From Ruminococcus sp. UBA6407 (GTDB lineage: Bacteria > Bacillota > Clostridia > Oscillospirales > Ruminococcaceae): DNA of 64,000 nucleotides. The position numbers were made by a program, and so were the translations under genes. The notes below the pieces were generated by a model. It ran no database searches, had not been told where the DNA came from, and saw nothing but the letters and a program-made list of their open reading frames with translations. The DNA is taken from assembly GCA_002438605.1 (NCBI GenBank), contig DJPR01000011.1, positions 96,201-160,200 on the forward strand, written 5' to 3'. Of the stretch, positions 46,945 to 64,000 are shown piece by piece; position 1 is the first letter of the stretch; every line of letters begins with the position of its first letter.

Positions 46945-49900
46945 ATGATGCAATTGTATTTAAAAGGATGCAGTGTTAAAAGGGTAAAAAAAGCTATTTC
47001 TCTTTTTTTAAGCGTTGTACTGACGTTTAATATCTGTGCTATCATAAGTCTTAAAACTTATGGTTCTTCACAGAATGAACAGAAAGCAGCGAAGGAAAAA
47101 ATCATTGAAAGAGCTGTTGCTTACCTTGAAAATGAAGAAAATGCAGATCACAGTATCGGTGACAGCAGAACTATTAATGATACTTCTGATGCACTGTCTG
47201 TATTGAGAACATTAGGAGAACATCAGCACAATGAAAGTGTGCAATGGCTGACAGAGCAGGTATCAACTGAAAATACTGATATGACAGCAAGACTTATTTC
47301 TGCGACAGGTAATCCGGAGTATTTGGAATATATCAAGGATATGCAGAATGAGGACGGCAGTTTCGGACTTTATCCGGGATATGCCGGTGATGTAATGGAT
47401 TCCGTTCTTGTTCTTGAGGCAATTAATGATATCGGTTATACAGGTACAGATATTTCATGTACAGACCTATGCTCTTATCTTATAGCTTCTGTGAATGGTG
47501 ACGGTGGATTTTCTTATAATGACGCAAATGCAAGCGATTACATATTATCTTCAATGGCGGTTTATAATATAGGAAGATTTTTTTATACCAATAATTATGA
47601 TATGTCTGTTCTCAGTAATTCATTGGATTACATAAATGAAAATACAGGCAATAGTTACAGTGATGACAATATTGAAAAAACAATATATAAATTTCTTGCA
47701 CTTCAGGCTTGTCAAGTTGAGTTTGACGCTATAGAAGTTGTAGAAGAACTTGAAAAGGCTGAAAAAGCTGACGGCAGTTTCGCAGGGAGTGTTCATATAA
47801 CTTCACTTGCCATAAAGCTTCTCAGCTCACTGGACCTTGAAAATCGTGTAAGAATAACTGATTTTAATACTGTTCTTAGCAATACTGAAGGAACGACAAA
47901 TAAGTCTACCTCAATTACAGCAGAGACTAATATCGGATATATAAGCAATTATGATGCACCGTTGGATTTGAAGTTTTCAGTATATAATGGTGAAAATGTT
48001 GTTTATGAAAACAACAGCAGCGTTTTGCTTCAGGAAAATGAAACTTCTCTTGTTGTAAATTCAGGTGAATTTCGACTTTCAGAACCAAGCAGTGCAGGGG
48101 TTTATACTCTTGTTGAACTTTATAATTGTGATACATTGATTAAATCTCAAAAAATAGTCATTAATATCAGCGATAATGAGACTGTTTATTCTACTGAGAT
48201 CAGTGAACTGGCTGTAGAACTTGATTCATATTCTGCATATAAAGATTCTGCTGCTGAAGTTGGAGTTTCATATGCTTTGCTGTATGCAACCAATGTAAAG
48301 CAGGATGTTAAAATGAAAACCATTGTCACAAAGGATAATAAGGAAATTAATTCTGTTAGCGAGGAATGTGAGCTCACTGAGGAGAAGAATATCCTTTCAG
48401 GAACACCGCTTAGTTTCAATCCTGACACTTCAAAGGAAGGCAAGTATGAAATAACCGTTATCTGTTTTTATAATGATGAGGAAATCTGCCGCCGAACAGT
48501 TGAATTTGTTGTTCAATCTGCTCCTGTAATTAAGGAAAAAACGGACGACATTGAATCGGAACAATTTGAAGTAACATGGTTTGGTCCTATACTCAGTGAT
48601 TACTATATTTTTGCAGGAAATGAAACTGAAATTTCTGTTGGTGCAGAGATCAATTATTTTTCCAATTGTGAATTTACAGGAAATATTGAAATTCAGGTTT
48701 ACAAGGGAGAAGAATGCATCGCTGAAAATACAACGGATATTTCCCTTGAAAAAGGAATTCCAACTTATTTTGAAGGAAAGGCAAATTATCCTGTTTATAA
48801 GAAAAACTCTCAACTTTCGTTCAGCGTGAAAAACGTTGGTGAATATAACGTATACGCTAAGCTTTATAATTCAAAGGGTGAACTTCTTAAAGAAGGTGAG
48901 TGCAGGCTGCAGGTGCTTGATAAGCCTGTGCAGGATCTTGTACTTAACAGCACAGTAGATGAAGAAGCCTCTGATATGGTCAATCTTTCATGGAACGATA
49001 TAAGCAATGATGCTGAGAGTTACAGCTATCAGCTTTACAGACGAACACCCGGAGCAAATTGGGAGCCACGTTCTATCTGGAATGAAGAAGAAAAAATTAA
49101 TGTACTTAATGTATATCCAAAGGGTCCTTATCTTGAGAATTGGATGAATACAACCATAAGTGATACAGAATATCCTGCCGGAAAGGGAATATTCGATATT
49201 GAATCGGTACATTTCCCTGTATTCAGTTCTGATCCTTACGGCTGTTTGCTCAATGATGACGGTACATGGAAATATGATGTTATATTTTTTGGTTCTTCTG
49301 ACTGTAATGACGGATATGATCTTGATGAGACTTCATCAGAAGTCTTACAGAAATTCATTGACAGCGGCAGAGGTGTTCTTTTCGGACATGATACCTTATG
49401 CGGAGGTTCATCGTATTACCTTAAACACCATTATTTCAATGATTTTGCTGAACAGGCAGGACTTGTTATAAAAACCCCAAGTCCTGAGGTATGGTACAGA
49501 ACCACTTCTGTTTCAGTTGTAAAGATTGGTACGCTTACAAATTATCCATGGGTTATAAGAGGAAACCTTACTGTCCCTAATACTCATTCAACCGGTCAGT
49601 ATCTTTATGGTGCAACAAGATGGATAGATCTTAATGCTACAAAGCGTGTTGACGAAGAAACGGGAGCAATTGATAATTTTTATCTTTGCACAAACAATAA
49701 CATAGGTATGATACAAACAGGTGACAGCACCGGTCAGGCATCTGACGATGAAAGAAAAATACTTGCAAATACGCTGTTCTATCTTTATCAGATTTCACAG
49801 CAGACAACTGCTAAGGATGCCTCTTTCTATGATATTGACGCTCCGAATAAACCGACATTTGTGTCATCTTCTGTATCTGAAGGAAAGATGACAATAGATA

Positions 49901-51414
49901 TAAGCTCTGTTGACAATAAAACAGAATATGAGTATTACATAAGTGCAAATCCTGAAAATACAAAGTCTGAAAACGTACTTTCAAACATAAGAAAACATGA
50001 AACTTTAAGCGGACTTGCAGGGTTTGTAGTTGAAGTAAACAACAGCTCTGAGCCAAGCTCTGACTTAATAAAATATGATGAGAATAATGAAAATATTCTT
50101 AATCTTAATCTTACTGATTCAAATGGACAAGCAAAGGTAACGGTTTCACCTACTGACTTGAGTGAACCGCAGTATATCCACATATTTGCTGTTGATAATG
50201 CCAATAATGTCAGTGAAGAATTAATCGTGCCTTTCTCTGATGCGGAGCTTGTTACAAATATTGAAACAGACAAAAAACTTTATTCATGCGGTGACACAGT
50301 AAGCATAGATACTTATACAGTTTCTGCACCATTTGGAAGAACGGCTGATATGACTATAGATATATATGATGAATTTGATAATAAAACTTCTGAAATAGCA
50401 TCTGAACCTCAGCAGATTCTTACAGCAGACGAACGCTTTATAAGTTCTGCTGAATGGAGTGTGCCGGATAATTTAGTGGGAAGATATAAGGCTGTAATAA
50501 CATGGGAGAATGATAATGATATTATCGCTAAGGCAGAAACAGAATTTAAAATAGCTAACGAAGAAAGTGTGCTTAATACAGTAAGCAGTGATAAAATGAG
50601 CTATTCTGTAAGTGACCCGATAAATCTTGAAAATATTGTTTATAATAAGAGTCAGGGAATGACTGAAAATGACCTTATACTTAATATTAAGGTATATAAT
50701 ACAGATACTTCTTATGAAGCTGCATCATTTGAACATTCTATCGGATTAATAAATCCGAACAGTTCAGCAGATTATTCAGACTCAATTGCTCCCAATGTTC
50801 TTGTAAGCGGTAATTACAGAGTTATATCTTCCGTAATTCAGGGCAATAGTGAGATTTCAACGGATACAGCAGAATTTACAGTTACTGATGATGTAACATC
50901 ATTTACAGGAAAACTTAAATTTAATTCGGATGTAAACTCCGCATCGGCTGACTTTAGCGTGACTAATAACGGAACAGAAAATGCTGATGAAGCTCTTATA
51001 ACATTATCTGTTTATAAAGAGGGTGTGACAGAGCGTATTTACACATATAGCGAATCTGTTTCTATAGGCATCGGTGAAACTGTAAGCCGCAGTCAGAAAA
51101 TAGATGTACCTCTTACTGACTGTGAATACTATGGTGTGTTAAGTGTAAATTATAAAGGCAGTTCTTCTGATCTTGATTATGATGGTTTTAAATTAATGCC
51201 GTTAGTTACTACTGTTTCAAATTCTGTTACGGATATGGAAACTGCTTCAACAACATCTGCTTCAAAGAAAACTGTAACAAAAACACAGAATCTGGATTCT
51301 CCTAAGACGGGAGTAAAGGATATTCCGACTTATATGTGGGTAATCACAATACTCAGCTTTGTGGGACTTATTGCAATAAAAATGACAGGAGGCAGTGAAG
51401 ATGAGAAAGACTAA
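46945..51414 (+). CDS. Large cell-surface protein with alpha-toroid domain and SPKTG anchor
   Basis: A 1489-residue exported protein. Residues 1-35 form a signal peptide. About residues 45-295 hold repeats like those of terpene cyclases and prenyltransferases (QNEDGSFGLYPGYAGDVMDSV; VNGDGGFSYNDANASDYI; KADGSFAGSVHITSLAIKLL). A series of beta-rich modules follows, with a fibronectin-III-like start near residue 675. About 700-960 holds a conserved unit (YDVIFFGSSDCNDGYDLDE; GRGVLFGHDTLCGG) that resembles DUF5057. The end has SPKTG (1452-1456), a membrane helix and a charged tail, as in sortase-anchored proteins. The next gene overlaps it. Its function is unknown; adhesion or binding is a guess. 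Confidence 0.75.
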   Translation: MMQLYLKGCSVKRVKKAISLFLSVVLTFNICAIISLKTYGSSQNEQKAAKEKIIERAVAYLENEENADHSIGDSRTINDTSDALSVLRTLGEHQHNESVQWLTEQVSTENTDMTARLISATGNPEYLEYIKDMQNEDGSFGLYPGYAGDVMDSVLVLEAINDIGYTGTDISCTDLCSYLIASVNGDGGFSYNDANASDYILSSMAVYNIGRFFYTNNYDMSVLSNSLDYINENTGNSYSDDNIEKTIYKFLALQACQVEFDAIEVVEELEKAEKADGSFAGSVHITSLAIKLLSSLDLENRVRITDFNTVLSNTEGTTNKSTSITAETNIGYISNYDAPLDLKFSVYNGENVVYENNSSVLLQENETSLVVNSGEFRLSEPSSAGVYTLVELYNCDTLIKSQKIVINISDNETVYSTEISELAVELDSYSAYKDSAAEVGVSYALLYATNVKQDVKMKTIVTKDNKEINSVSEECELTEEKNILSGTPLSFNPDTSKEGKYEITVICFYNDEEICRRTVEFVVQSAPVIKEKTDDIESEQFEVTWFGPILSDYYIFAGNETEISVGAEINYFSNCEFTGNIEIQVYKGEECIAENTTDISLEKGIPTYFEGKANYPVYKKNSQLSFSVKNVGEYNVYAKLYNSKGELLKEGECRLQVLDKPVQDLVLNSTVDEEASDMVNLSWNDISNDAESYSYQLYRRTPGANWEPRSIWNEEEKINVLNVYPKGPYLENWMNTTISDTEYPAGKGIFDIESVHFPVFSSDPYGCLLNDDGTWKYDVIFFGSSDCNDGYDLDETSSEVLQKFIDSGRGVLFGHDTLCGGSSYYLKHHYFNDFAEQAGLVIKTPSPEVWYRTTSVSVVKIGTLTNYPWVIRGNLTVPNTHSTGQYLYGATRWIDLNATKRVDEETGAIDNFYLCTNNNIGMIQTGDSTGQASDDERKILANTLFYLYQISQQTTAKDASFYDIDAPNKPTFVSSSVSEGKMTIDISSVDNKTEYEYYISANPENTKSENVLSNIRKHETLSGLAGFVVEVNNSSEPSSDLIKYDENNENILNLNLTDSNGQAKVTVSPTDLSEPQYIHIFAVDNANNVSEELIVPFSDAELVTNIETDKKLYSCGDTVSIDTYTVSAPFGRTADMTIDIYDEFDNKTSEIASEPQQILTADERFISSAEWSVPDNLVGRYKAVITWENDNDIIAKAETEFKIANEESVLNTVSSDKMSYSVSDPINLENIVYNKSQGMTENDLILNIKVYNTDTSYEAASFEHSIGLINPNSSADYSDSIAPNVLVSGNYRVISSVIQGNSEISTDTAEFTVTDDVTSFTGKLKFNSDVNSASADFSVTNNGTENADEALITLSVYKEGVTERIYTYSESVSIGIGETVSRSQKIDVPLTDCEYYGVLSVNYKGSSSDLDYDGFKLMPLVTTVSNSVTDMETASTTSASKKTVTKTQNLDSPKTGVKDIPTYMWVITILSFVGLIAIKMTGGSEDEKD

Positions 51415-54223
51415 TCTTCTTAAAATGGCAGCTTTAATTACTGCCTCAGCTTATATTTTTTCCACATCCGGAAGTATTTCAAATGTTGTTAAAAATGAAA
51501 GTAAGGAAACTCCGGAAAAATCAGTTTCAGTAAGCGTAGTTTCAGAGGAAAGCCGCACTTCTTCCGTAGAAAAGCTTAAAAATGCTTTTGAGGAAAATGG
51601 CGAAACACTTAGTTTGTGTGACGAGATAATCAGAGAAGTGAATATCGAAAAGGAAAAACTGGATTCGGACGTTATTGATATATCGGATTGGGCTGATGAT
51701 GTAATAATTGCACGTCAGGAAAAGTATGAGCATGAATTATCAATAAAATATGCCGAAACCATTGAAGCTCTTACTGAGCTGAAAAATGGTGAGAATATCA
51801 ATGAAAATCTTGAAATCATTAATAAAAATCTTTCTGAGCCTGAAGAATATCATAAATCAGATGCTGTTCCGAATACAGCAGTCGATATTAGTGATATCAG
51901 TCTTGTTCCGGGTACAAGATCAGCCCAAAGTGTAGAGATCACTTCACCTGAACCTTCATCTGATGACCTGATATATGATGCAGATACAGTTTATCCGGAA
52001 GTGATAAAGACATTTGCCGAAAAGCTTGGAGATGTCAACAGCATATACCTTTATGTAAAGAACAATATTTATTTTGAAGCTTATTCAGGCTCAAAGAAGG
52101 GTGCAACTGTCACTCTGGAGCAGCAGGGCGGCAATGATATAGATCAGGCTTCGCTTCTTATTGCTATGCTCAGAGCAATAAATATTCCATCAAGATTTGT
52201 CGGCGGAACAATAAGAATAACAGCAGAACAGGCTGTGGATATAACAGGTGCGGCAGATGCTGTAAGTGCAGGACGAATTCTTGCTTCAAGATATAAAAAT
52301 GTTACAGGCATTACTTATAATGGTCAGCTCATTGGATATAAAATGTATCATACATGGGTAGAGGCATACATTCCATATACTGACTACCGTGGAGCAGGCA
52401 ACAAATCAGGCAGCAAAATATGGGTACAGCTTGACCCAAGTTTTAAAAAGCTTGAAAAGGTTTCAGAGTCGATTGTTCCTGAATATACGGCCGAAGATAA
52501 GGCACTGCTTAAAACTATCTCCGATAATGCTGAGCTTTATCCGAATATTTACAAATCTATGGAGCCGATGCCTGAATCAATAAATTATAATGGTACAACT
52601 ATTGTAAGCACCAATGAAAAATACATTCCAACATCACTTCCATATACAGTATTGAGTGTTGATGAGAGATATTCATTTGTAAAAAACAGTGATAAGGACA
52701 GCATATCCATAGAAATTAACGGAGAAACTTTATTTTCATCTCCAATATCAGAACTGTATTATAATAAAATAAACATATCCTATGAACCTGCAACTGATTA
52801 TGACAGATCGGTTATGGAGCATTACGAAAAGATAACAGATGTTCCTGCATATCTGGTAAATGTTGTTCCGGTAGTTACTGTTGGTGATAAAAAGTATGCA
52901 GGAAGTGAAGAGGCATCTCTTGGTTCAATGCAGCAAATGATTACTACTATAAGGAACAACGGTGGAACAACAATGCTGGATGACAGTGTTTACTGCGGTT
53001 CAATGTATGCAATAAATCTTGATCTTCAGCGAATTTCTCCTGAGGATGCTGAAGCTGCGGAAAAAAGACTTGTTAAAGCTGAACAGATATTTACAACAGC
53101 AAATGCTTGTTCTACAGATGTTCTTGGCTCAATGCTTGATTATGCAGGCAAGTATTATTTCAGTCTGTGTGACGCTCAGTCAATGATTCAGGCGGCAATT
53201 ATGGATATAAATCAGACAAGACAGCTTGCCCTTGCAATAACAGGTTATCAGTTCCATAGGTTAAGCTCATTTGGTATAGTAAGATCTCTTGACTTTGGGG
53301 CATTCTATATAGATGTTGCTTATAATAATGTTGCTGCTTTAAGCTTGACTGGTGATAAATCTGCTGAAAGAAAGTACATGATGTCTGCTGGTGCAGTTGA
53401 GTCATTTTATGAAAGCTATATATGGCAGCAGCTTATTGATAATGAATCTACCTGCATATCTACTGTCAGCGTATTTGATATTGCACATGATCAGGGAATT
53501 AAATCAAGATATATTTGTTCAGCAAATCTGGAAGATGAGCTGAGCCAATGCAATATCAATGATTCAGTTAAAACTGAGATAAGAAACTTCGTTAATCGTG
53601 GTCTGCTGGTCGAGATAGTTCCTGAAACACTTACCATAGGTGACTGGACGGGTACAGCTTACATAGCAATGAATATGGATAACGGTTCTGCCTCCTACAT
53701 GATTTCCGGAGGAACAGCCGGCGGCTCGTCCATGAACTTTGAAGATTTATTCAATTTAAATATGAGGCTGTTTGTAATAAACACCGAGTTTACTTGTGCA
53801 AGCATGATGAAAGGTGTAGTTAATTTTGAGTGTGGAGTTTTTACATATAACGGAGCAAAGCTTTTTGAAGGAGCAAGTAGTCTTATAGGAGGAGCATTCA
53901 CACTTGCTTCGGCTTTTCAAATGAGATATGATGCCATTGACTTTATTTTAAGATATGCCGAAGAGGGCGAGGACTGCATGAAAGAATTTAAAATAATGAC
54001 AGCACGCAATCTTTTGGATACATTTTTCAATGTTGTTGCAGCCTGCGGTGATCTTATAGGCGGCGCTGCAGGAGATGTTACAGGCTGGACTGCAACTATA
54101 TATTCATATATCACATATTTTTCAGATCCTGATTTTAAGGATTCGGATTCAGATGAGAGATTAACTAATTCTATTCCTGTTATATGGGATCTGATAAGCA
54201 AATTAATAAGCAAGCAATTATAA
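51401..54223 (+). CDS. Exported protein with transglutaminase-like fold lacking the catalytic Cys
   Basis: A 940-residue protein with an N-terminal signal (about residues 1-28). A Glu/Lys-rich helical stretch (to about 130) precedes a transglutaminase-like domain (about 190-350). In the family the triad is Cys-His-Asp. Here the His (YHTWVEAY, His317) and Asp (WVQLDPSF, Asp345) are present, but the Cys position reads GGNDIDQASLL with Asp246. About 590 further residues, with long helical patches and late hydrophobic segments, have no family I recognise. The start is ATG 51401, with AGGAGG 8 bases upstream; it lies inside the end of the preceding surface-protein gene, so the two are coupled. Confidence 0.75.
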   Translation: MRKTNLLKMAALITASAYIFSTSGSISNVVKNESKETPEKSVSVSVVSEESRTSSVEKLKNAFEENGETLSLCDEIIREVNIEKEKLDSDVIDISDWADDVIIARQEKYEHELSIKYAETIEALTELKNGENINENLEIINKNLSEPEEYHKSDAVPNTAVDISDISLVPGTRSAQSVEITSPEPSSDDLIYDADTVYPEVIKTFAEKLGDVNSIYLYVKNNIYFEAYSGSKKGATVTLEQQGGNDIDQASLLIAMLRAINIPSRFVGGTIRITAEQAVDITGAADAVSAGRILASRYKNVTGITYNGQLIGYKMYHTWVEAYIPYTDYRGAGNKSGSKIWVQLDPSFKKLEKVSESIVPEYTAEDKALLKTISDNAELYPNIYKSMEPMPESINYNGTTIVSTNEKYIPTSLPYTVLSVDERYSFVKNSDKDSISIEINGETLFSSPISELYYNKINISYEPATDYDRSVMEHYEKITDVPAYLVNVVPVVTVGDKKYAGSEEASLGSMQQMITTIRNNGGTTMLDDSVYCGSMYAINLDLQRISPEDAEAAEKRLVKAEQIFTTANACSTDVLGSMLDYAGKYYFSLCDAQSMIQAAIMDINQTRQLALAITGYQFHRLSSFGIVRSLDFGAFYIDVAYNNVAALSLTGDKSAERKYMMSAGAVESFYESYIWQQLIDNESTCISTVSVFDIAHDQGIKSRYICSANLEDELSQCNINDSVKTEIRNFVNRGLLVEIVPETLTIGDWTGTAYIAMNMDNGSASYMISGGTAGGSSMNFEDLFNLNMRLFVINTEFTCASMMKGVVNFECGVFTYNGAKLFEGASSLIGGAFTLASAFQMRYDAIDFILRYAEEGEDCMKEFKIMTARNLLDTFFNVVAACGDLIGGAAGDVTGWTATIYSYITYFSDPDFKDSDSDERLTNSIPVIWDLISKLISKQL

Positions 54224-54471: not shown

Positions 54472-54500
54472 TTGATTTTTTATTTAAATTATGATACACT
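54472..54500 (+). promoter_or_regulatory. Promoter for tetR and the partner-switch/NHLM operon
   Basis: TTGATT (54472-54477), 17 bases, TACACT (54495-54500). The TetR-type palindrome starts two bases after the -10 box. Confidence 0.6.
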
Positions 54501-54501
54501 A

Positions 54502-54523
54502 TAACTAATTAAACAATCAGTTA
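54502..54523 (+). promoter_or_regulatory. Putative TetR operator
   Basis: An imperfect palindrome with outer half sites TAACT (54502-54506) and AGTTA (54519-54523). Inner ATT/AAT matches give 8 of 11 positions symmetric. Its place, between the -10 box and the ribosome site of a TetR-family gene, fits self-repression. Confidence 0.6.
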
Positions 54524-54541
54524 TATTATGGAGGCTGATGT

Positions 54542-55147
54542 GTGCATATGAGGACGCCACAGCAACACAATGAAAAAAAGATAGAAATTATGGAGAAATG
54601 CTTTGAATGCTATGCTGAAAACGGTCTGACCGGTACCGGCATTAAAGCACTTGCAAAGGCTTGTGACTGCACGACCGGAAATCTGTATGTCTATTTCAAT
54701 AATCTCGATGAGCTGATTATTGAATCAACTGCTTACTGTATGGCTAAGGTGGAAGATGAATTCATGGCAAAAGCTCCACATAATCCAAAGGATGTTATGC
54801 GTTTTATCGAAGAAATTCCTTACTGGACAGCTGAAAAACATGGCAAAAAATATAGGCTTATGTATCAGATTTATACCCATCCGAAATATATTGAATACGG
54901 AAAAAAGTTCTTTGAAGGTGTCAATGAGCGTTATACCGCATATGCAAAGCTGCTTGAACCACAAATTGGCATACCTTATACGGTAATTGTATCTCTTATC
55001 TTCATTTTCGTCCGTGCATGCGTCCATTACGCTATGTTTGAGGATGAGTATTATCTCAAAAGTCAGATGGAAGTATTGAAGCAGGCAGTCAAACTGTTTT
55101 CGGATAAATACCGTATTGAATTTTCAGACGGATATATCGGACAATAG
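54542..55147 (+). CDS. TetR/AcrR-family transcriptional regulator
   Basis: A 201-residue repressor. The N-terminal helix-turn-helix reads IMEKCFECYAENGLTGTGIKALAKACDCTTGNLYVYFNNLDELI (shown across residues 15-58), typical of TetR with the YxYFxN recognition end. The C-terminal ligand domain is not assignable. GTG 54542, 7 bases after GGAGG, is the likely start; ATG 54548 is possible. The gene is followed after 36 bases by the STAS gene. It probably controls the whole NHLM locus. Confidence 0.88.
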   Translation: MHMRTPQQHNEKKIEIMEKCFECYAENGLTGTGIKALAKACDCTTGNLYVYFNNLDELIIESTAYCMAKVEDEFMAKAPHNPKDVMRFIEEIPYWTAEKHGKKYRLMYQIYTHPKYIEYGKKFFEGVNERYTAYAKLLEPQIGIPYTVIVSLIFIFVRACVHYAMFEDEYYLKSQMEVLKQAVKLFSDKYRIEFSDGYIGQ

Positions 55148-55183
55148 AATTACAAATAAAAAATATATTATGGAGGCAAAAAT

Positions 55184-55480
55184 ATGATTATCAATAAAAA
55201 ATCTGAAGGCGAAAAATTAACACTTATTATATCGGGACGGCTCGACACAAATTCATCTCCAAAGCTTGAAACTGAGTTAAGACAGTCTGTAGGCGGAATA
55301 AAGGAACTTGTCTTTGATTTTTCTGAAGTAGAATATATTTCCTCAGCAGGACTTCGTGTTCTCCTTGCAGCACAAAAGGTGATGAATCGTCAGGGCAGCA
55401 TGAAACTGATCGGAGTTAGTTCGGAAGTTATGGAAGTATTTGAAATTACAGGCTTTTCAGATATATTAACAATAGAGTGA
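55184..55480 (+). CDS. STAS-domain anti-sigma factor antagonist (SpoIIAA/RsbV type)
   Basis: A 98-residue single STAS domain. The phosphorylation site is in the segment EYISSAGLRVLLAAQK, with Ser54 aligning to Ser58 of SpoIIAA. In the family the dephosphorylated form binds the kinase and releases its target, and the phosphorylated form is inactive. GGAGG lies before the ATG. It is followed by its likely phosphatase (10 bases later) and kinase. Confidence 0.92.
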   Translation: MIINKKSEGEKLTLIISGRLDTNSSPKLETELRQSVGGIKELVFDFSEVEYISSAGLRVLLAAQKVMNRQGSMKLIGVSSEVMEVFEITGFSDILTIE

Positions 55481-55489
55481 TTAAAAAAT

Positions 55490-57925
55490 ATGAAAACATT
55501 TTTATGGCTTTCTCTTATCGCACTGTTTCCTGTGGTTTTGTCTGCTTTGATTTACCTTACGGAGCGAACAAAAGTGGCAAGCAAAATGTCGTATATTGCA
55601 AAGCAGTTAATAACAGGCATTATGTTTGGCGGACTTGCAATTCTTGGAACAGAATTTGGTATTAAAATTGACGGTGCGATTATAAATGCCAGAGATGCTT
55701 CGCCTATCTGTGCAGGACTTCTTTTCGGTGCACCTGCGGGAATTATTGCAGGTATTATAGGCGGAGTGGAACGCTGGCTTGCAGTTATTTGGGGTGCAGG
55801 TGAATACACACAGCTTGCCTGCAGTGTTTCAACTGTTCTTGCAGGTGCTTTTGCCGCCGCATTGCGAAAGTACATGTTTGACAACAAAAAACCAAAGTGG
55901 TATTACTGCCTTGCAATAGCAGTGATTACAGAAATCGTGCATATGTTGATGATATTCCTTACGAATATGAATGATGTGCGAACTGCATTTTCTTTTGTGC
56001 GTATATGCTCGCTGCCTATGATTGCAGTAAATGGTCTTGCGGTGATGCTTGCCGGAGCATTGCTCTCACTTCTATCCGTAAGAGAGCATAAAACTGCACA
56101 TCACGATTTGAAAAATATTTCGCAGTCATTTCAACGTTTTCTTCTCGTATGCGTTACGGCAGGATTTCTTATGACTACCGTATTTACATGGGCACTTCAG
56201 ACCGAGCTTGCGAAAAATGAAGCAAGCGAACTTGTTAAGCTTAACATTGAGGATGTTCGTGAGGATATACTTGATGCTTCAAACAAAAATCTTCTTGAAC
56301 TTACAAAAAAGATAGCCTCACGTCTTAATTCAGCAGGGAAAGCAGATTCAGCACTGCTTAATGAGCTTGGAAAAGAATTTGATATAGCAGAAATTAATGT
56401 TATTGACAGCCGAGGAATTATTACTGCATCTACATATGAGAATTTTCTTGAATATGATATGCGTGGCGGAAGTCAGTCGGCGGAATTTCTTGTTTTGCTG
56501 GACGGCAAAACAAAAGAATATGTCCAGAACTATCAGCCGACATCATCAGATCCGACTATTTCCCGTAAATACGCAGGAATCGTGCTTAATGACGGAGGCT
56601 TTGTTCAGGTTGCATATGATGCTGAACGGTTTCAGAAAGATATTGATGATGTTGTTGTAGGTGTTACACGAAACCGTCATGTCGGAGAAAACGGCTGTAT
56701 TATCATTGCCGGTGAGGATTGGAACATTGTCAGCGACAGGCATGGAAATGAGGGAAAAAATCTTGATTTTTCAGGCGTTTACATAGACCGCAGCACTATG
56801 CCTGAGGGTGACTTGTTTAATGCTGTTGTTTACGATGATGATGCAATTTGCTCATATATTGTTTCAGAGGGATACTACATAGTTGCTGTACTTCCTTGGA
56901 CTGAAGCAATGTTTTCAAGGGATATATCAGTATACATAACCGTCTTTATGGAGTTTGTCGTTTTTGGTATGCTATTTATCGTTGTATATTTCCTGATCAA
57001 AAAACTGGTTGTAGATAACATGGCAAAGATTAACAGGTCACTTGCAAAGATAACAAGCGGAAACCTTGATACTGTGGTTGACGTTCGTACAAATGAAGAA
57101 TTTGCTTCTCTTTCCGATGACATTAATTCAACCGTTCTGACGCTGAAACGCTACATTGCAGAAGCGGCAGCACGAATCGACAAGGAGCTTGAATTCGCAA
57201 AAACAATTCAGCATTCCGCAATACCAACCGTTTTTCCGCCGTATCCGGGACACAGTGAATTTGATATTTACGCTGCAATGGATACAGCTAAAGAAGTGGG
57301 CGGCGATTTCTATGATTTCTACTTTGTCGGTGAGAATAAACTTGGATTTTTAATAGCCGATGTTTCCGGTAAAGGAATCCCTGCAGCAATGTTTATGATG
57401 ACGGCAAAAACGATAATAAAAGGCTATGCCGAATCAGGTAAATCTGTTGATGAAGTATTTACCATAGCTAATGAAAAGCTTTGTGAATCGAATGAAGCAG
57501 GAATGTTTGTTACAGCATGGTTTGGTGTGCTTGATCTTTTAACAGGCAAGGTAGAATTTGTTAATGCAGGTCATAATCCTCCGCTTGTAAGACATAAAGA
57601 TAGTACATTCGATTACCTTAAATCAAAGCCGAGCTTTGTTATTGCAGGAATGGAGGGTATGAAGTACCGCAGGAATGAATTTTTCCTGTCTCCCGGTGAC
57701 GAGATTTATCTTTATACTGACGGAGTGACTGAGGCAACAGATTCTGAAAACAGACTTTATGGTGAGGAGAGACTTGTCAGGTTTCTGAACACTCTGCATG
57801 GACTTTCAGGAGAAGAAATTTGCCATGCTGTCAAGGCTGATGTGGCAGATTTTGTCGGTGACGCTCCTCAGTTTGATGATATTACAATGCTGTACTTGAA
57901 ATATAACGGAGGTGGCGAAAAATGA
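55490..57925 (+). CDS. Membrane-sensor SpoIIE/RsbU-type PP2C phosphatase
   Basis: An 811-residue protein. Residues 1-200 form a five- to six-helix membrane region like the 5TM receptor domain of LytS-type proteins (DASPICAGLLFGAPAGIIAGIIGG). A helix at about 214-233 leads to an extracellular sensor domain (about 235-475, Cache/PAS-like), then a second helix (479-503), a HAMP linker (about 504-556) and a PP2C domain (about 590-808). The PP2C metal motifs are visible: GGDFYDFY, LIADVSGKG, FVNAGHNPP and QFDDITMLYL. It should dephosphorylate the STAS protein upon an outside signal. It overlaps the kinase gene by four bases. Confidence 0.9.
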   Translation: MKTFLWLSLIALFPVVLSALIYLTERTKVASKMSYIAKQLITGIMFGGLAILGTEFGIKIDGAIINARDASPICAGLLFGAPAGIIAGIIGGVERWLAVIWGAGEYTQLACSVSTVLAGAFAAALRKYMFDNKKPKWYYCLAIAVITEIVHMLMIFLTNMNDVRTAFSFVRICSLPMIAVNGLAVMLAGALLSLLSVREHKTAHHDLKNISQSFQRFLLVCVTAGFLMTTVFTWALQTELAKNEASELVKLNIEDVREDILDASNKNLLELTKKIASRLNSAGKADSALLNELGKEFDIAEINVIDSRGIITASTYENFLEYDMRGGSQSAEFLVLLDGKTKEYVQNYQPTSSDPTISRKYAGIVLNDGGFVQVAYDAERFQKDIDDVVVGVTRNRHVGENGCIIIAGEDWNIVSDRHGNEGKNLDFSGVYIDRSTMPEGDLFNAVVYDDDAICSYIVSEGYYIVAVLPWTEAMFSRDISVYITVFMEFVVFGMLFIVVYFLIKKLVVDNMAKINRSLAKITSGNLDTVVDVRTNEEFASLSDDINSTVLTLKRYIAEAAARIDKELEFAKTIQHSAIPTVFPPYPGHSEFDIYAAMDTAKEVGGDFYDFYFVGENKLGFLIADVSGKGIPAAMFMMTAKTIIKGYAESGKSVDEVFTIANEKLCESNEAGMFVTAWFGVLDLLTGKVEFVNAGHNPPLVRHKDSTFDYLKSKPSFVIAGMEGMKYRRNEFFLSPGDEIYLYTDGVTEATDSENRLYGEERLVRFLNTLHGLSGEEICHAVKADVADFVGDAPQFDDITMLYLKYNGGGEK

Positions 57926-58329
57926 AAGAACTGACTATTCCGGCAACTATTGAAAACATTGATCTTGTTACAAATTTTGTGAATGAGCAGTTAGAGGAAA
58001 TCGACTGTCCGCCAAAAGCACAGATGCAGATTGACATTGCTATTGACGAACTTTTCGGTAATATAGCACATTATGCATACAATCCGAAAACAGGTCCTGC
58101 TACGGTACGTGTTGAGGTTACGTCAGCTCCGATTTCAGTGGTCATTACTTTTATCGACCATGGCATACCGTATGATCCGTTGAAAAAGAACGATCCTGAC
58201 ATCACTTTGACATCAGATGAGCGTGAGATCGGAGGGCTTGGGATATTTATGGTAAAAAAGACCATGGATGAAATCACTTATGAATACAGGGACGGTCAGA
58301 ACATTCTTCGTATCCGAAAGGATATATAA
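57922..58329 (+). CDS. SpoIIAB/RsbW-like serine kinase, anti-sigma type
   Basis: A 135-residue GHKL ATPase. The N box is in IDIAIDELFGNIAHYAYNP, the G1 box in FIDHGIPYDP and the G2 box in GGLGIFMVKKTMDEI. In the family it phosphorylates the STAS antagonist and sequesters a sigma factor or other target. No sigma factor gene is nearby. Its start lies inside the end of the phosphatase gene, with GGAGG upstream. Confidence 0.9.
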   Translation: MKELTIPATIENIDLVTNFVNEQLEEIDCPPKAQMQIDIAIDELFGNIAHYAYNPKTGPATVRVEVTSAPISVVITFIDHGIPYDPLKKNDPDITLTSDEREIGGLGIFMVKKTMDEITYEYRDGQNILRIRKDI

Positions 58330-58374
58330 ATCCTATTTTAATTTATTATATAATTTAGGTTAGGGGGCAAAATT

Positions 58375-58851
58375 ATGGGCAAAACAATATTTCGCCAAAA
58401 GAGTATGCAGAAAATCACATCTCCGGAGCAGATGAACGATTATATCCGTGTTTCAAACCCAAGTGTATGGATGATACTTGCAGCAGTCATTGTATTATTA
58501 GCAGGAGTATGCGTGTGGGGCGTGTTCGGGCATCTGGATACTGTTTTGCAGACAGGCGGTGTCTGTAAGAACGGACGTCTGGTTGTTTATATCGGCGAAA
58601 AGGATTTTGCTGAGATTGGCGAAAATACTGTTTTTTCAGTCAATGGAAGTGAATATGCATTGTCCAATCTTGACGATACGCCCGTTCAACTTGACGAAAA
58701 TTTTGATTCGTACCTTATTCACCTGATAGGTCTTTCCGAGGGTGATTGGGTATACGCTTTGGAAACCGATGTTTCAGGCGTCAAAGACGGCACATACACC
58801 GTGTCGGTTATAACCGAACGTGTCAAGCCAATTAATTTTGTCCTGAATTGA
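58375..58851 (+). CDS. Miniature HlyD-like NHLM secretion protein
   Basis: A 158-residue protein with a cytoplasmic start (IFRQKSMQKITSPEQMNDYIRVSNP) that closely resembles the N-terminus of NHLM-system HlyD-like secretion proteins. One membrane helix (about 33-55) and a small beta-rich outer domain follow. Usual family members are much longer and have a coiled-coil hairpin; that is missing here. A GGGGG site precedes the ATG. It lies 9 bases before the C39 transporter gene, so it is likely its accessory subunit. This identification rests on the N-terminal motif and context. Confidence 0.75.
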   Translation: MGKTIFRQKSMQKITSPEQMNDYIRVSNPSVWMILAAVIVLLAGVCVWGVFGHLDTVLQTGGVCKNGRLVVYIGEKDFAEIGENTVFSVNGSEYALSNLDDTPVQLDENFDSYLIHLIGLSEGDWVYALETDVSGVKDGTYTVSVITERVKPINFVLN

Positions 58852-58860
58852 GGTGTGGGA

Positions 58861-61044
58861 ATGAAGGCAACCGAAAAAATAAAATCACCGATTACAAAGG
58901 GCGTTGCTAAAGTACCTGTGGTCATGCAGATGGAAGCATTGGAATGCGGAGCTGCAAGTCTTGCAATGATTCTTGCTTACTACGGAAAATGGATTCCGCT
59001 TGAACAGGTACGCCTTGACTGTGGAGTTTCACGTGACGGCTCTAATGCGAAAAACATTCTTCGTGCTGCCCGCAGTTATGGACTTTCTGCAAAGGGGTAT
59101 CGCTATGAGCCTGAAGTCCTGAAAAAAGAGGGCAGGTTTCCATGCATTATCCACTGGAATTTTAATCATTTTGTAGTTCTCAACGGCTTTCGGGGAAATA
59201 AAGCGATACTTAATGATCCTGCAAAAGGGACATATACTGTCCCGATGAGCACCTTTGATGAATCATTTACCGGAATTTGCCTGATACTTGAGCCAAATGA
59301 GAATTTCGTTCCGGAAGGCAAACCTCAGTCCATGCTTGCTTATGCAAAAAAGAGACTTGTCGGTGCAGGTGCAGCAATTGTATTCGTTATCCTGACTGCT
59401 GTTATTACGTCACTTCTCGGTATTATTACCCCTGCATTTTCACGTATTTTTCTTGACAGATTACTGACGGGCGAAAATCCCGATTGGCTCATGCCGTTTA
59501 CGTTCGCACTTGCAGGCATAAGTGTGGTTCAGCTTGTTGTTGCATGGATACAGGCGGTTTATTCGCTAAGAATCAATGGCAAGCTTGCTATGGTTGGAAA
59601 TACCACATTTATGTGGAAGGTTCTGCGTATGCCGATGGAATTTTTCTCTCAGCGTATGGCAGGTGATATTCAAAGCAGACAGTCGTCAAATGCTATGATT
59701 GCCGGACAGCTTGTAAACACCTTTGCACCGCTTGCACTGAATGCGGTTATGATGAGTTTTTATCTTATTGTTATGCTCAGATACAGTGTAATACTCACAC
59801 TTATCGGGCTTGCTTCGGTGCTTGTAAACCTTATTCTTTCAAGCATTATTTCAAAAAAACGCATTAATATTACTCGTGTTCAGATGCGTGATGCAGGTAA
59901 ACTTGCCGGAACAACCGTTGCAGGCATAGAAATGATTGAAACAATAAAGGCGAGCGGAGCTGAAAACGGTTTTTTTGAAAAATGGGCAGGATATCAGGCA
60001 AGCGTCAATACGAATATGGTTCGTTTTCAACGCATGAATCAGCTTTTAGGATTGCTGCCGACTCTTGTAAGCTCACTTTGCGATACAGCTGTACTTATGA
60101 CGGGTGTTTTCCTTGCAATGAAGGGAGAATTTACCGTTGGCATGATTATGGCATTTCAGGGATTTCTTTCATCATTTATCTCTCCTGCAACAACACTGAT
60201 TTCCGCAGGTCAGACCTTGCAGGAAATGCGTACTGACATGGAGCGTATTGAGGATGTTATGAAATATCCAACAGATGTCACTTTTGAAAATTTCGACGGC
60301 AGTGAAAATATCGAATATGATAAACTTTCCGGAAATATTGAAATCAAAAATGTTACTTTTGGTTATTCACGCCTTGCAGAGCCGCTGATAAAGGATTTCA
60401 GTATGTCACTCAAATCCGGCAGCCGAGTTGCATTTGTCGGTCCTTCGGGGTGCGGTAAATCCACAGTTTCAAAGCTCATATCCGGACTTTATAAGCCATG
60501 GAGCGGTGAAATACTTTTTGACGGAAAACCTATGTCAAAAATTGACCGAAGTGTATTTACCGGTTCTCTTGCAGTTGTGGATCAGGATATCATTCTGTTT
60601 GAAGATACGATTGCAAACAATATAAAAATGTGGGACAATTCCATTGAAGATTTTGAAATGATTATGGCTGCACGTGATGCACAGCTGCATGAGGATATTA
60701 TGCAGCGTGAAGGCGGTTATCAATATAAATTGACTGAAGGTGGAAAAGATTTTTCAGGCGGACAAAGGCAGCGTATGGAGATAGCCCGTGTGCTTGCACA
60801 GGATCCTACCATTATTATTCTGGACGAAGCCACAAGTGCTCTTGATGCAAAAACCGAGTATGATGTGGTGAAGTCCATAAAAGACCGTGGAATAACCTGC
60901 ATTGTTGTGGCACACAGACTGTCAACTATCCGTGACTGTGATGAAATTATCGTAATGGATCAGGGAAATGTAGTTGAGCGAGGAACTCACGAAGAGCTGA
61001 TGAAAAATGGCGGTGCATATACACAGCTCGTATCAAACGAGTAG
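58861..61044 (+). CDS. NHLM-type peptidase/permease/ATPase exporter
   Basis: A 727-residue peptide exporter. An N-terminal C39 peptidase carries Cys29 (MEALECGAAS), His103 (NFNHFVVLNG) and Asp119 (LNDPAKG). Then come about six membrane helices (about residues 160-450) and an ABC ATPase with VGPSGCGKST, FSGGQRQRMEIARVL and IIILDEATSALD. Such proteins cut leader peptides after a Gly-Gly site while exporting the core. ATG 58861 has GAGG 7 bases upstream. It is paired with the second exporter protein 15 bases downstream, the hallmark of NHLM bacteriocin systems. Confidence 0.93.
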   Translation: MKATEKIKSPITKGVAKVPVVMQMEALECGAASLAMILAYYGKWIPLEQVRLDCGVSRDGSNAKNILRAARSYGLSAKGYRYEPEVLKKEGRFPCIIHWNFNHFVVLNGFRGNKAILNDPAKGTYTVPMSTFDESFTGICLILEPNENFVPEGKPQSMLAYAKKRLVGAGAAIVFVILTAVITSLLGIITPAFSRIFLDRLLTGENPDWLMPFTFALAGISVVQLVVAWIQAVYSLRINGKLAMVGNTTFMWKVLRMPMEFFSQRMAGDIQSRQSSNAMIAGQLVNTFAPLALNAVMMSFYLIVMLRYSVILTLIGLASVLVNLILSSIISKKRINITRVQMRDAGKLAGTTVAGIEMIETIKASGAENGFFEKWAGYQASVNTNMVRFQRMNQLLGLLPTLVSSLCDTAVLMTGVFLAMKGEFTVGMIMAFQGFLSSFISPATTLISAGQTLQEMRTDMERIEDVMKYPTDVTFENFDGSENIEYDKLSGNIEIKNVTFGYSRLAEPLIKDFSMSLKSGSRVAFVGPSGCGKSTVSKLISGLYKPWSGEILFDGKPMSKIDRSVFTGSLAVVDQDIILFEDTIANNIKMWDNSIEDFEMIMAARDAQLHEDIMQREGGYQYKLTEGGKDFSGGQRQRMEIARVLAQDPTIIILDEATSALDAKTEYDVVKSIKDRGITCIVVAHRLSTIRDCDEIIVMDQGNVVERGTHEELMKNGGAYTQLVSNE

Positions 61045-61059
61045 GGAGGCAGATGAAAT

Positions 61060-63261
61060 ATGGGTTGGTTTGACGAGCAAATAAGAGATCGCAAGCAAAA
61101 TGACGATGACGCTTTTGCAGAAGCATTTTCCAATATGGCATCTGCTGTAATGGGCAAAAGAATTGAAGCATCTCTTAACGATGACCGTACCGTTACTAAA
61201 GATGCAATTGATGAGATTTTAAAATATTACCATGTAAAAAGCCGAGAGGTTCCCGATAATATCTCTGATATGAACGAACAGCTTGAATATTTGATGCGTC
61301 CGTATGGCATTATGCGGCGTACGGTTAAGCTTGAAAACGGATGGTATCGTGATGCTGTCGGTGCAATGCTTGGTGTGTTGCGAGAGAGTGGAAAGGCGGT
61401 GGCTTTAATTCCGACAGGGCTTTCGGGATATAGTTTTCTTGATATTGAAACAGGTAAGCGTAAGCGTATAAACCGCCGAAATCAGCACTTATTTGATACG
61501 GAAGCAATTGCTTTTTATAAGCCTTTTCCGCTTAAAAAACTCAGTCTTGCTTCACTTGCGGTTTATATTGCACGAACACTTTCAGTATCTGATTTTGTGA
61601 TGATCGCTTTGGCGACGCTTTCACTGTCACTTATCGGTATGATTTCTCCGATACTTAGCAAGCTTTTGTTTGGTAGTGTTCTGCCGTCCGGAAATTTTGA
61701 CACGCTTCTTTCAATTGCATTTTTTACCGTGTGTGTTTCTGTAAGTACATTGCTTATTTCAGCCGTCAAAAGCATGATTACGACACGTATTGAAACGAAA
61801 TTGAATATTTCTGTTGAAGCAGCAACCATGATGCGTGTGATGTCGCTTCCCGCAGATTTTTTCAAGCAGTACAGTTCAGGTGAGTTGTCAAGCCGAGCGG
61901 CTCAGGTAGGTGCACTTTGCAAAATGCTGGCATCTACTGTCTTGTCAACAGGACTCACCTCACTGTTTTCTATCATATATATATCGCAGATATTTGTTTA
62001 TGCTCCAATGCTTGTTGTGCCTGCATTAATAATTCTGCTTGTGACTGTAATATTTTCTGTAGTGTCATCACTTGTGCAGATGAAGATAAGCACTCGTCAA
62101 ATGGAACTTTCCAGTAAGGAAAATGGTATGACCTATTCACTCATTACAGGAATACAGAAAATTAAGCTGGCAGGTGCTGAAAAACGAGCTTTTGCAAGAT
62201 GGGGGAATCTCTACGCAAAGAGTGCAAAGATGATGTATAATCCGCCGATGTTTATAAAGATTAATTCGGTTATAAGCCTTGCAATAAGCCTTGCGGGAAT
62301 GATAATTATGTACAGTATGTCGGTCAGGTCAGGTATTTCTGTTGCCGATTACTATGCTTTTAACACTGCATACGGTATGGTATCCGGTTCATTTATGGCA
62401 CTTGCAGGTATTGCACTCAGTGCGGCACAGATCAGGCCGATTCTGACTATGGTCAAACCGTTTTTTGATACCATTCCCGAAATTTCCGATGGAAAACAGG
62501 TATTAACACGACTTTCAGGCGGAATTGAACTGAATAATGTTTCCTTTCGATATGACGAGAACATGCCGCTTGTTGTGGATGATATGTCATTGAAAATTCG
62601 ACCGGGACAATATGTTGCAATTGTAGGAAAGACGGGCTGCGGAAAGTCAACCCTGATGCGTCTGCTGCTTGGGTTCGAGCGTCCGCAGAAAGGTGCAATC
62701 TATTATGATGGCAAGGATTTAGAACGCATTGACCTTCGCTCCCTCAGACGCCGTATCGGTGTGGTGATGCAGAATGGGAAATTATTCTTAGGAGACATTT
62801 ATTCCAATATCATAATTTCTGCACCGTGGCTGTCTCAAAGTGACGCTTGGGAAGCGGCAGAACTTGCCGGAATTGCTGATGATATCAGAAAAATGCCAAT
62901 GGGAATGAATACGGTTATTTCCGAAGGTTCAGGAGGCATATCGGGAGGACAGCGTCAAAGATTGATGATTGCACGTGCTATCGCACCAAAACCTAAAATT
63001 CTGATGTTTGATGAGGCAACGAGTGCACTTGACAATTTGACACAGAAAAAAGTGTCAGAATCGCTGGCAACACTGAAATGTACCAGAATTGTAATTGCCC
63101 ACCGCCTGTCAACGATAAAACAGTGTGACAGAATTATCGTTCTTGATAAAGGAAAAATCATTGAGGACGGCAAGTATGACGAGCTTATCGCCGCAAACGG
63201 TTTTTTTGCTGAACTGGTTGCAAGACAAAGGCTTGATGACGTAGCTGAAACGGATTCATAA
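61060..63261 (+). CDS. NHLM-type permease/ATPase without peptidase
   Basis: The second transporter of the pair, 733 residues. The N-terminal region (about 1-150) is soluble but has no C39 active site and resembles a cyclic-nucleotide-like or degenerate domain seen in this family. Six membrane helices lie at about 165-430. The ABC ATPase has VGKTGCGKST, ISGGQRQRLMIARAI and ILMFDEATSALD. It probably forms a heterodimer with the C39 protein. GGGAGG lies before the ATG. Confidence 0.92.
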   Translation: MGWFDEQIRDRKQNDDDAFAEAFSNMASAVMGKRIEASLNDDRTVTKDAIDEILKYYHVKSREVPDNISDMNEQLEYLMRPYGIMRRTVKLENGWYRDAVGAMLGVLRESGKAVALIPTGLSGYSFLDIETGKRKRINRRNQHLFDTEAIAFYKPFPLKKLSLASLAVYIARTLSVSDFVMIALATLSLSLIGMISPILSKLLFGSVLPSGNFDTLLSIAFFTVCVSVSTLLISAVKSMITTRIETKLNISVEAATMMRVMSLPADFFKQYSSGELSSRAAQVGALCKMLASTVLSTGLTSLFSIIYISQIFVYAPMLVVPALIILLVTVIFSVVSSLVQMKISTRQMELSSKENGMTYSLITGIQKIKLAGAEKRAFARWGNLYAKSAKMMYNPPMFIKINSVISLAISLAGMIIMYSMSVRSGISVADYYAFNTAYGMVSGSFMALAGIALSAAQIRPILTMVKPFFDTIPEISDGKQVLTRLSGGIELNNVSFRYDENMPLVVDDMSLKIRPGQYVAIVGKTGCGKSTLMRLLLGFERPQKGAIYYDGKDLERIDLRSLRRRIGVVMQNGKLFLGDIYSNIIISAPWLSQSDAWEAAELAGIADDIRKMPMGMNTVISEGSGGISGGQRQRLMIARAIAPKPKILMFDEATSALDNLTQKKVSESLATLKCTRIVIAHRLSTIKQCDRIIVLDKGKIIEDGKYDELIAANGFFAELVARQRLDDVAETDS

Positions 63262-63286
63262 CAATTTGCAAATTTATTGCATTGCT

Positions 63287-63325
63287 ATAGGCAGTATACA
63301 TATTCATTTTGCGGTGTTACCTTAA
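63287..63325. repeat. Copy of the palindromic repeat inside the NHLM locus
   Basis: TAGGCAGTATACATATTC and the right arm TTTTGCGGTGTTACCTTA. It separates the transporter genes from the peptide genes. Confidence 0.6.
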
Positions 63326-63360
63326 ATAATTAAGTATATTATTTTTACAGGAGGTGCTAT

Positions 63361-63513
63361 ATGAAAAAAGAAGAAAAGCAAAACAAGCCAATTGAGGAAA
63401 TTGCTCCAGAGAAACTGAGCGATGAGGAACTTGGCAATGTAAGCGGCGGTAAAAGAATGATCATTACCTATGATGAGAATGAATCTCTTCAGAAGCCTTT
63501 TTGCAAGGAATAA
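63361..63513 (+). CDS. Short double-glycine-type peptide, candidate RiPP precursor
   Basis: A 50-residue frame with AGGAGGTG directly upstream of its ATG. The leader part is Lys/Glu-rich and ends in KLSDEELGNVSGG, nearly identical to the end of the leader in the next gene (LSDEELDNVSGG). Cleavage after Gly-Gly would free a core of 20 residues, starting KRMIITYD and ending PFCKE, with one Cys. Unlike the next gene, it lacks the Nif11-like domain. It is a probable substrate of the C39 exporter. Confidence 0.75.
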   Translation: MKKEEKQNKPIEEIAPEKLSDEELGNVSGGKRMIITYDENESLQKPFCKE

Positions 63514-63566
63514 TGCAAAAATGCCTGAGAACATTTAAAATTTTATATTTTAAGGAGGAACTGATT

Positions 63567-63959
63567 ATGGAAATGAACAAAGAATTGCTTGCAAAAGCAA
63601 AAGGAGCAAAAAACCCTGAAGAGCTTTTTGCTATTGCTAAAGAAAATGGCACAGAACTTACTGAAGAAAGTGCAAAGGCATATTTTGATTTGCTGCAACC
63701 GAAAAACGGTGAGCTTTCCGATGAAGAGCTTGATAACGTTTCAGGCGGCGGTTGTTATAATGGCGGCAGACTGATTGTTACAATCTGGAATCGCTGCGAT
63801 TATTGGGTATGTACAATAGACGGTGAAAGCTATATGGACAGTTGTGCAGGTGGTATTTGTAAGAAATGTGGCTGTGCATCGGTTTGTGAGAACTGCAAGT
63901 ATTGTTCCTACGAAAAAGGACTCTGGCTTTGCAATAATGATAAAAACAGAAAGAATTAA
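63567..63959 (+). CDS. Nif11-like leader RiPP precursor, Cys-rich core
   Basis: A 130-residue peptide. Residues 1-62 form a Nif11-type leader (MNKELLAKAKGAKNPEELF; ELTEESAKAYFDLL) ending in ELSDEELDNVSGG. The core of about 69 residues has 11 cysteines, several spaced as CKKCGC, CENC and CKYC, with some Gly and Tyr. AAGGAGG precedes ATG 63567. The Nif11 leader links it firmly to NHLM export. Modification type (for example lanthionine, cyclodehydration or disulfides) cannot be deduced, as no modification enzyme is in the window. Confidence 0.88.
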   Translation: MEMNKELLAKAKGAKNPEELFAIAKENGTELTEESAKAYFDLLQPKNGELSDEELDNVSGGGCYNGGRLIVTIWNRCDYWVCTIDGESYMDSCAGGICKKCGCASVCENCKYCSYEKGLWLCNNDKNRKN

Positions 63960-63973
63960 TAGGAGGAAAAATT

Positions 63974-64000
63974 ATGAAAATGAACACTGAACTGCTTGCA
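63974..64000 (+). CDS. Start of a further Nif11-leader precursor (cut by window end)
   Basis: After AGGAGGAAAAATT an ATG at 63974 opens a frame reading MKMNTELLA up to the last base. This matches MEMNKELLA of the previous gene at 7 of 9 residues. It is almost surely the next member of a tandem family of precursor genes. Confidence 0.75.

Follow-up and report, generated by a model that had tools for sequence, protein, structure and literature searches.

The partner switches SpoIIAA-SpoIIAB-SpoIIE and RsbV-RsbW-RsbU, by which sigma factors are controlled, consist of the same three protein families as the locus described here, a STAS protein, a kinase and a PP2C phosphatase, and the key residues are present in it; the locus differs from them in having no adjacent sigma gene, in lying in an exporter operon and in carrying a 5TM-LYT sensor with an outside region. 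SiaABCD of Pseudomonas is a partner switch with a non-sigma output, and in the lack of a sigma factor it resembles our locus, the PP2C of which scores weakly with the SiaA model, at 63 bits against a cut-off of 700, and which, unlike SiaABCD, includes no cyclase gene. In Bordetella a phosphatase, a STAS protein and a kinase are also tied to a secretion function: according to passages of a review (PMC7498569), BtrU, BtrV and BtrW, which work with the ECF sigma factor BtrS, are all required for type III secretion and none is a negative regulator, and BtrU and BtrW are assumed to govern secretion itself by a mechanism that is not known. That system belongs to Gram-negative type III secretion, whereas an ABC peptide exporter is found here. 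A stand-alone STAS protein encoded with an ABC transporter is also found in MlaB-MlaF. In portions of the MlaFB paper (PMC7367683), MlaB is bound to the ATPase MlaF with a conserved Ser/Thr, Thr52, at the interface, and a phospho-mimicking Glu at this position weakens MlaF binding; the Thr52Ala variant is still bound, yet non-functional, which does not fit a simple control by phosphorylation. The same portions suggest that small proteins possibly regulate other ABC transporters likewise, and mention that no second PDB entry containing both STAS and ABC domains was found. MlaB-MlaF serves lipid transport, phosphorylation of MlaB is not demonstrated in those portions, and the STAS protein of our locus falls well short of the MlaB family model (26.6 bits against a cut-off of 90). 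With NHLM/Nif11 export loci the locus shares ABC1, ABC2, Nif11 leaders and a radical SAM enzyme, and it differs from them by a truncated HlyD and an added partner switch. A literature search, judged partly by title, rendered no paper on partner-switch genes paired with NHLM/Nif11 peptide export. We take the locus for a new variation on partner switching and not for a system of a new kind.

The window, that is, the whole stretch of 64,000 nucleotides from Ruminococcus sp. UBA6407 that was analysed, belongs to contig C38 of a 2.14-Mb genome. Genes for TetR, STAS, PP2C, kinase, mini-HlyD, ABC1 and ABC2 form a row on the same strand that spans 54542-63261, with the peptide genes next. A preliminary description had reported this row on a single strand, with gaps of less than 50 bases up to the transporters and precursor peptides within about 100 bases of the exporters, and it was borne out in both respects: the intergenic distances from TetR to ABC2 are 36, 9, -4 (an overlap), 45, 3 and 15 bases, 45 being the largest, and 99 bases separate the end of ABC2 from a gene for a 50-aa double-glycine peptide. 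The identities of the seven genes from TetR to ABC2, taken from Pfam and NCBIfam models, are all supported, that of mini-HlyD weakly. The features are as follows.

54500..54525, no strand: candidate TetR operator, an 11-base inverted repeat (10 of 11 positions paired, 4-base spacer; putative role)
54542..55147, + strand: TetR-type regulator (PF00440 27.8 bits, above cut-off)
55184..55480, + strand: STAS switch protein, Ser54 as predicted phospho-acceptor (PF01740 58.7 bits; TIGR00377 above cut-off; alignment)
55490..57925, + strand: membrane-sensor PP2C phosphatase (SpoIIE domain 173 bits; 5TM-5TMR_LYT 103 bits)
57922..58329, + strand: SpoIIAB/RsbW-type kinase (PF13581 79 bits)
58375..58851, + strand: mini-HlyD (partial TIGR03794; one membrane segment by hydropathy)
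58855..61044, + strand: NHLM ABC1, C39 peptidase exporter (TIGR03796 951 bits, above cut-off)
61060..63261, + strand: NHLM ABC2 exporter (TIGR03797 739 bits, above cut-off)
63361..63513, + strand: 50-aa double-glycine peptide with a 20-residue tail (ORF)
63567..63959, + strand: Nif11-leader precursor with a Cys-rich tail (Pfam/NCBIfam, borderline)

Beyond base 64000 (L018) there are two further Nif11 precursors, a terminator-like hairpin, a radical SAM/SPASM enzyme and MacAB-like genes. Since all four same-strand terminator-like sites between TetR and the last precursor are located within genes, a single transcript comprising the genes from TetR to the precursors is plausible as far as the sequence goes. 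The inverted repeat immediately 5' of the TetR gene suggests that the operon promoter may be controlled by TetR. Scans of the other loci with a profile of this regulator yielded no relative of it, and the TetR gene is therefore probably a local addition to the locus. Two very large proteins are encoded upstream on the same strand (window 46945-54223), one of 1489 aa and one of 942 aa with a transglutaminase core.

Judged by protein families and key residues, the locus is a predicted partner-switching module. The STAS protein carries the motif ISSAGL at position 52, and Ser54, which lies inside the motif and is phosphorylatable, aligns with the site in the SpoIIAA-like protein of the same genome. 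In the kinase, which is above the PF13581 cut-off, the N-box, G1 and G2 motifs (DELFGN at 42, DHG at 79 and GGLG at 104) have residues that are invariant across 14 aligned kinases, and a profile of it matched the RsbW structure 6m36 at 4e-9; only two proteins of the genome, the one taken as SpoIIAB and the locus kinase, pass that cut-off. The PP2C protein has the metal-binding aspartates of a phosphatase, in the motifs GGDFYD at 604, YTDGV at 742 and FDDIT at 795, and its SpoIIE domain is the PF07228 match. The functional meaning of the kinase, STAS and PP2C motifs, including the N-box and the metal-binding aspartates, is what we take it to be in these families. Domain models and a hydropathy script together divide the PP2C protein into an N-terminal 5TM-LYT sensor, an outside region at about 237-477, a membrane segment at 478-512 and the SpoIIE domain. 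Its residues 1-560 are 98% identical to two Ruminococcus sp. records, and the sensor half varies between loci.

On the export side, NHLM ABC1 and ABC2 both exceed their curated cut-offs. A full-length NHLM HlyD is absent from the locus, mini-HlyD matching positions 1-58 of the 421 of TIGR03794 with 35.9 bits against a cut-off of 156.2. The leaders of the Nif11/TIGR03798 type end in a double Gly and score at the borderline: as single ORFs, the three precursors reached 22.4, 19.3 and 22.1 bits with PF07862 (cut-off 23.8) and 32.0, 29.5 and 32.4 bits with TIGR03798 (cut-off 32.3), and two matches exceeded the PF07862 cut-off in the genome search. The 50-aa peptide had no match in Pfam or NCBIfam. 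Double-glycine peptides of 48-51 aa with short, unlike tails are encoded near exporter genes in the window (63361-63513) and at L212:11393-11539, L218:12636-12791 and L039:11155-11304, and they are candidate signal peptides. The proposal that the exported peptide itself is the outside signal read by the switch gains from the presence of these short peptides near the exporter but found no further support, and the variation of the PP2C sensor half between loci neither proves nor excludes it.

Recurrence of the switch at NHLM exporters was examined with profiles seeded from the window proteins. The exporter (TIGR03797) was found in 16 of 197 genomes of the family sample and 8 of 125 of the genus sample (E <= 1e-150), and in 22 of 391 of the class sample and 18 of 295 of the order sample (E <= 1e-190). 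The comparison set comprised 76 NHLM loci, namely 16 from the family, 15 further ones from the order, 22 from the class, 7 from the genus and 16 named loci. The 15 order loci represent 14 genomes, and five of them (L213, L216, L218, L219 and L222) belong to the window's own family. At least 80 named loci were found, of which 26 reaching into the C39 part were annotated and 16 counted among the 76; ten further named loci (L064-L069, L071, L072, L074 and L085) had no kinase match. In 12 of the 76 loci, STAS, PP2C and kinase genes are all at most 10 kb away from the exporter: this triad is present in 8/16 of the family and 4/15 of the additional order loci, but not in any of the 22 class, 7 congener and 16 listed named loci, several loci ending at contig ends. 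Conservation of the triad beside NHLM genes in relatives, on which the preliminary description had made the coupling depend, thus holds in half of the family loci and in part of the order sample but not in the class sample, the congeners or the named loci. The four order-sample triads span four GTDB-type families, including the window's own, in which L219 is placed. Gene order varies among the triad loci, the kinase and phosphatase are fused in L050 and L214, and partial sets occur (STAS and PP2C in L186; PP2C in L057; STAS and kinase in L059, L061 and L213; PP2C and kinase in L218). G177, which has the triad, mini-HlyD and the start of ABC1 on one contig and the remainder of ABC1 on another, was counted as triad-less.

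According to Pfam place lists, 9 of 16 family genomes have a strong PP2C match no more than 10 kb away from the exporter, versus 0.33 expected (P 3e-12), and 15 of 23 family and genus genomes have a STAS gene at such a distance, versus 0.93 expected (P 1e-16), P values that treat the genomes as independent, though they are related, and that use rounded genome sizes. On the kinase tree the label exporter-linked required 9 changes, or 7 if the count is restricted to exporter-linked and other kinases, 2 being forced by starred branches; on the ABC1 tree, built by a quick method, the label for kinase and PP2C near required 9 changes, 7 of them forced, and this label is clustered, not random. These changes indicate that the pairing of switch and exporter has been gained or lost repeatedly, and such repetition together with the varied gene order argues for function. 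It could also be the case that the two modules moved jointly on mobile DNA without any functional tie. This would agree with a G+C content of 0.41 in the locus versus 0.36-0.38 in its surroundings, and with the fact that the nearest locus of the same architecture (L212) is in another family while no congener has the arrangement; we nevertheless hold it improbable, as the repeated pairing in varied order and the excess of STAS genes near the exporter speak against it. The nearness of switch and exporter genes is also compatible with plain co-regulation.

Within the genus, the triad is at the exporter in the window genome alone, and seven other exporter genomes lack it there. In five of these seven congeners a STAS gene is located directly upstream of mini-HlyD-ABC1-ABC2, and four of the five encode kinase and phosphatase elsewhere; in the fifth, G944, no kinase was found at E <= 1e-20. 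G892 and G937 had neither a STAS match at the exporter nor a kinase at E <= 1e-20, the contig of G892 ending about 0.3 kb upstream of mini-HlyD, where a STAS gene is possible. The kinase is present in 5 of the 6 genomes with STAS at the exporter, the window's included, versus 13 of 119 other genus genomes (P 2e-4, genomes treated as independent), and 14 of the 76 loci have a STAS gene at most 10 kb away from the exporter but no kinase gene nearby. This pattern suggests that it is STAS which is coupled to the exporter, with a kinase that may serve it from near or far.

Related bacteria have joined switch and exporter genes time and again with the customary transcription factor absent, and for this reason the pump itself may be what the switch controls. 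Our main reading, to which we assign a probability of about one half, is that a partner switch has been built into an NHLM peptide-export operon with the exporter as its output, STAS docking on it as MlaB does on MlaF; a distant sigma factor, the chief competing explanation, would take a clearly smaller share, and other outputs or co-transfer the rest. TetR at the head of the operon would set transcription, as the inverted repeat suggests, and the PP2C membrane sensor, to judge from its domains, would read a signal from outside or from the membrane. Phosphatase and kinase would then set the phosphorylation of STAS Ser54, in line with the conserved residues and the chemistry of these families. 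Unphosphorylated STAS would dock on one of the exporter's ABC ATPases, for which gene association and precedent speak, and would come off again once phosphorylated or captured by the kinase, so that peptide export would be switched without new transcription. More tentatively, and with some doubt on our part, a phospho-switched, outside-sensing, MlaB-like STAS protein may gate an ABC exporter after translation, ribosomal peptide secretion being switched at the pump. A switch with the pump as its target would place peptide secretion under phosphorylation control at the exporter, and we know of no example of such control for ribosomal peptides. The locus is also a candidate for STAS control of another ABC transporter, this time with kinase and phosphatase, which makes it testable with purified proteins, and it bears on why many switch sets in related bacteria have no adjacent sigma gene.

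The absence of a sigma factor from the set had been correctly pointed out beforehand: none was found beside the kinase, and of nine sigma region 2 matches in the genome the only one on the contig (C38:79709-79906) is 71 kb upstream of STAS. Past base 64000, where a search for a sigma gene had been advised, lie the Nif11, radical SAM/SPASM and MacAB-like genes. The lack of an adjacent sigma gene lowers the standing of the locus as a sigma-controlling switch, but not the case for a sigma role at a distance, in which the kinase would hold a sigma factor encoded elsewhere, ECF or sporulation, until a signal frees it to transcribe this locus or others. The three shared protein families, the nine sigma region 2 proteins available in the genome and the presence of an ECF sigma gene near 5 of the 16 kinase-bearing NHLM loci would all suit such a switch. 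From sequence and neighbours the nine were read as RpoD, four sporulation types, one SigH-like protein and three ECFs; one sporulation sigma adjoins STAS and kinase genes taken as SpoIIAA and SpoIIAB, and each ECF gene, by eye, has a candidate partner adjacent or fused. The ECF clade linked to NHLM loci (at least 150 bits), with examples at L042:10142-10645, L043:8200-8697, L212:13608-14195 and L219:8304-8849, is absent from the window genome, the best score of which is 133.6 bits. Clade members occur in 20 of the 76 loci, 5/16 kinase-bearing versus 15/60 kinase-less, and sigma and kinase are thus not associated across the set. Any sigma match appeared in only 2 of 33 loci around other phosphatases or kinases (among them L141, the triad locus of G177, and L137 and L151, which overlap exporter neighbourhoods). 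With the head of the operon already occupied by TetR as well, we regard a distant sigma factor as unlikely here. A sigma output is possible in L043, L212, L218, L219 and L061, which are the kinase-bearing loci with an ECF sigma gene near, directly after ABC2 in L043, L218 and L219; in architecture, L212 comes closest to the window locus. The earlier suggestion of a transporter as a possible target of the kinase agrees better with the comparison of loci than does the classical role of freeing a sigma factor.

The switch might instead act on a c-di-GMP enzyme or another soluble enzyme, the exporter being one of several operon functions. SiaABCD provides a known switch of the non-sigma kind, and ten stand-alone STAS-kinase-PP2C sets in the genus adjoin a PAS-HD-GYP protein (L250:10687-11970, assigned by Pfam in L250 only, and nine more loci of the genus that match it strongly); but no such enzyme gene belongs to the window's set, and a second-messenger output, which we consider improbable, would leave unexplained why congeners encode STAS immediately next to the exporter.

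Variations on the theme occur in relatives, where pseudo-kinases with the RsbW fold are encoded next to the exporter and some MATE transporters carry a fused kinase-type domain. An unannotated family of about 205 aa that is common in switch loci (L055:14853-15476, L213:7893-8498, L141:8618-9232 and L250:7094-7723) is predicted to have the SpoIIAB/RsbW fold without the kinase motifs. MATE transporters ending in a HATPase_c_2 domain, of the anti-sigma kinase type, are encoded next to STAS, PP2C or kinase genes at L133:5714-7465, L135:5642-7396, L039:17336-19063 and L218:3-1478, the N-box Asn being missing in L039 and L218. None of the 120 listed ABC2 relatives, all of them close ones, is fused to STAS; a C-terminal STAS domain is found on proteins of about 415 aa encoded downstream of ABC2 in NHLM loci (L219:6194-7447 and L214:11063-12301). 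A gene for a CstA-type carrier is located between the switch genes and mini-HlyD at L043:13929-15374, as identified by Pfam, and at L216:14011-15456, by sequence likeness.
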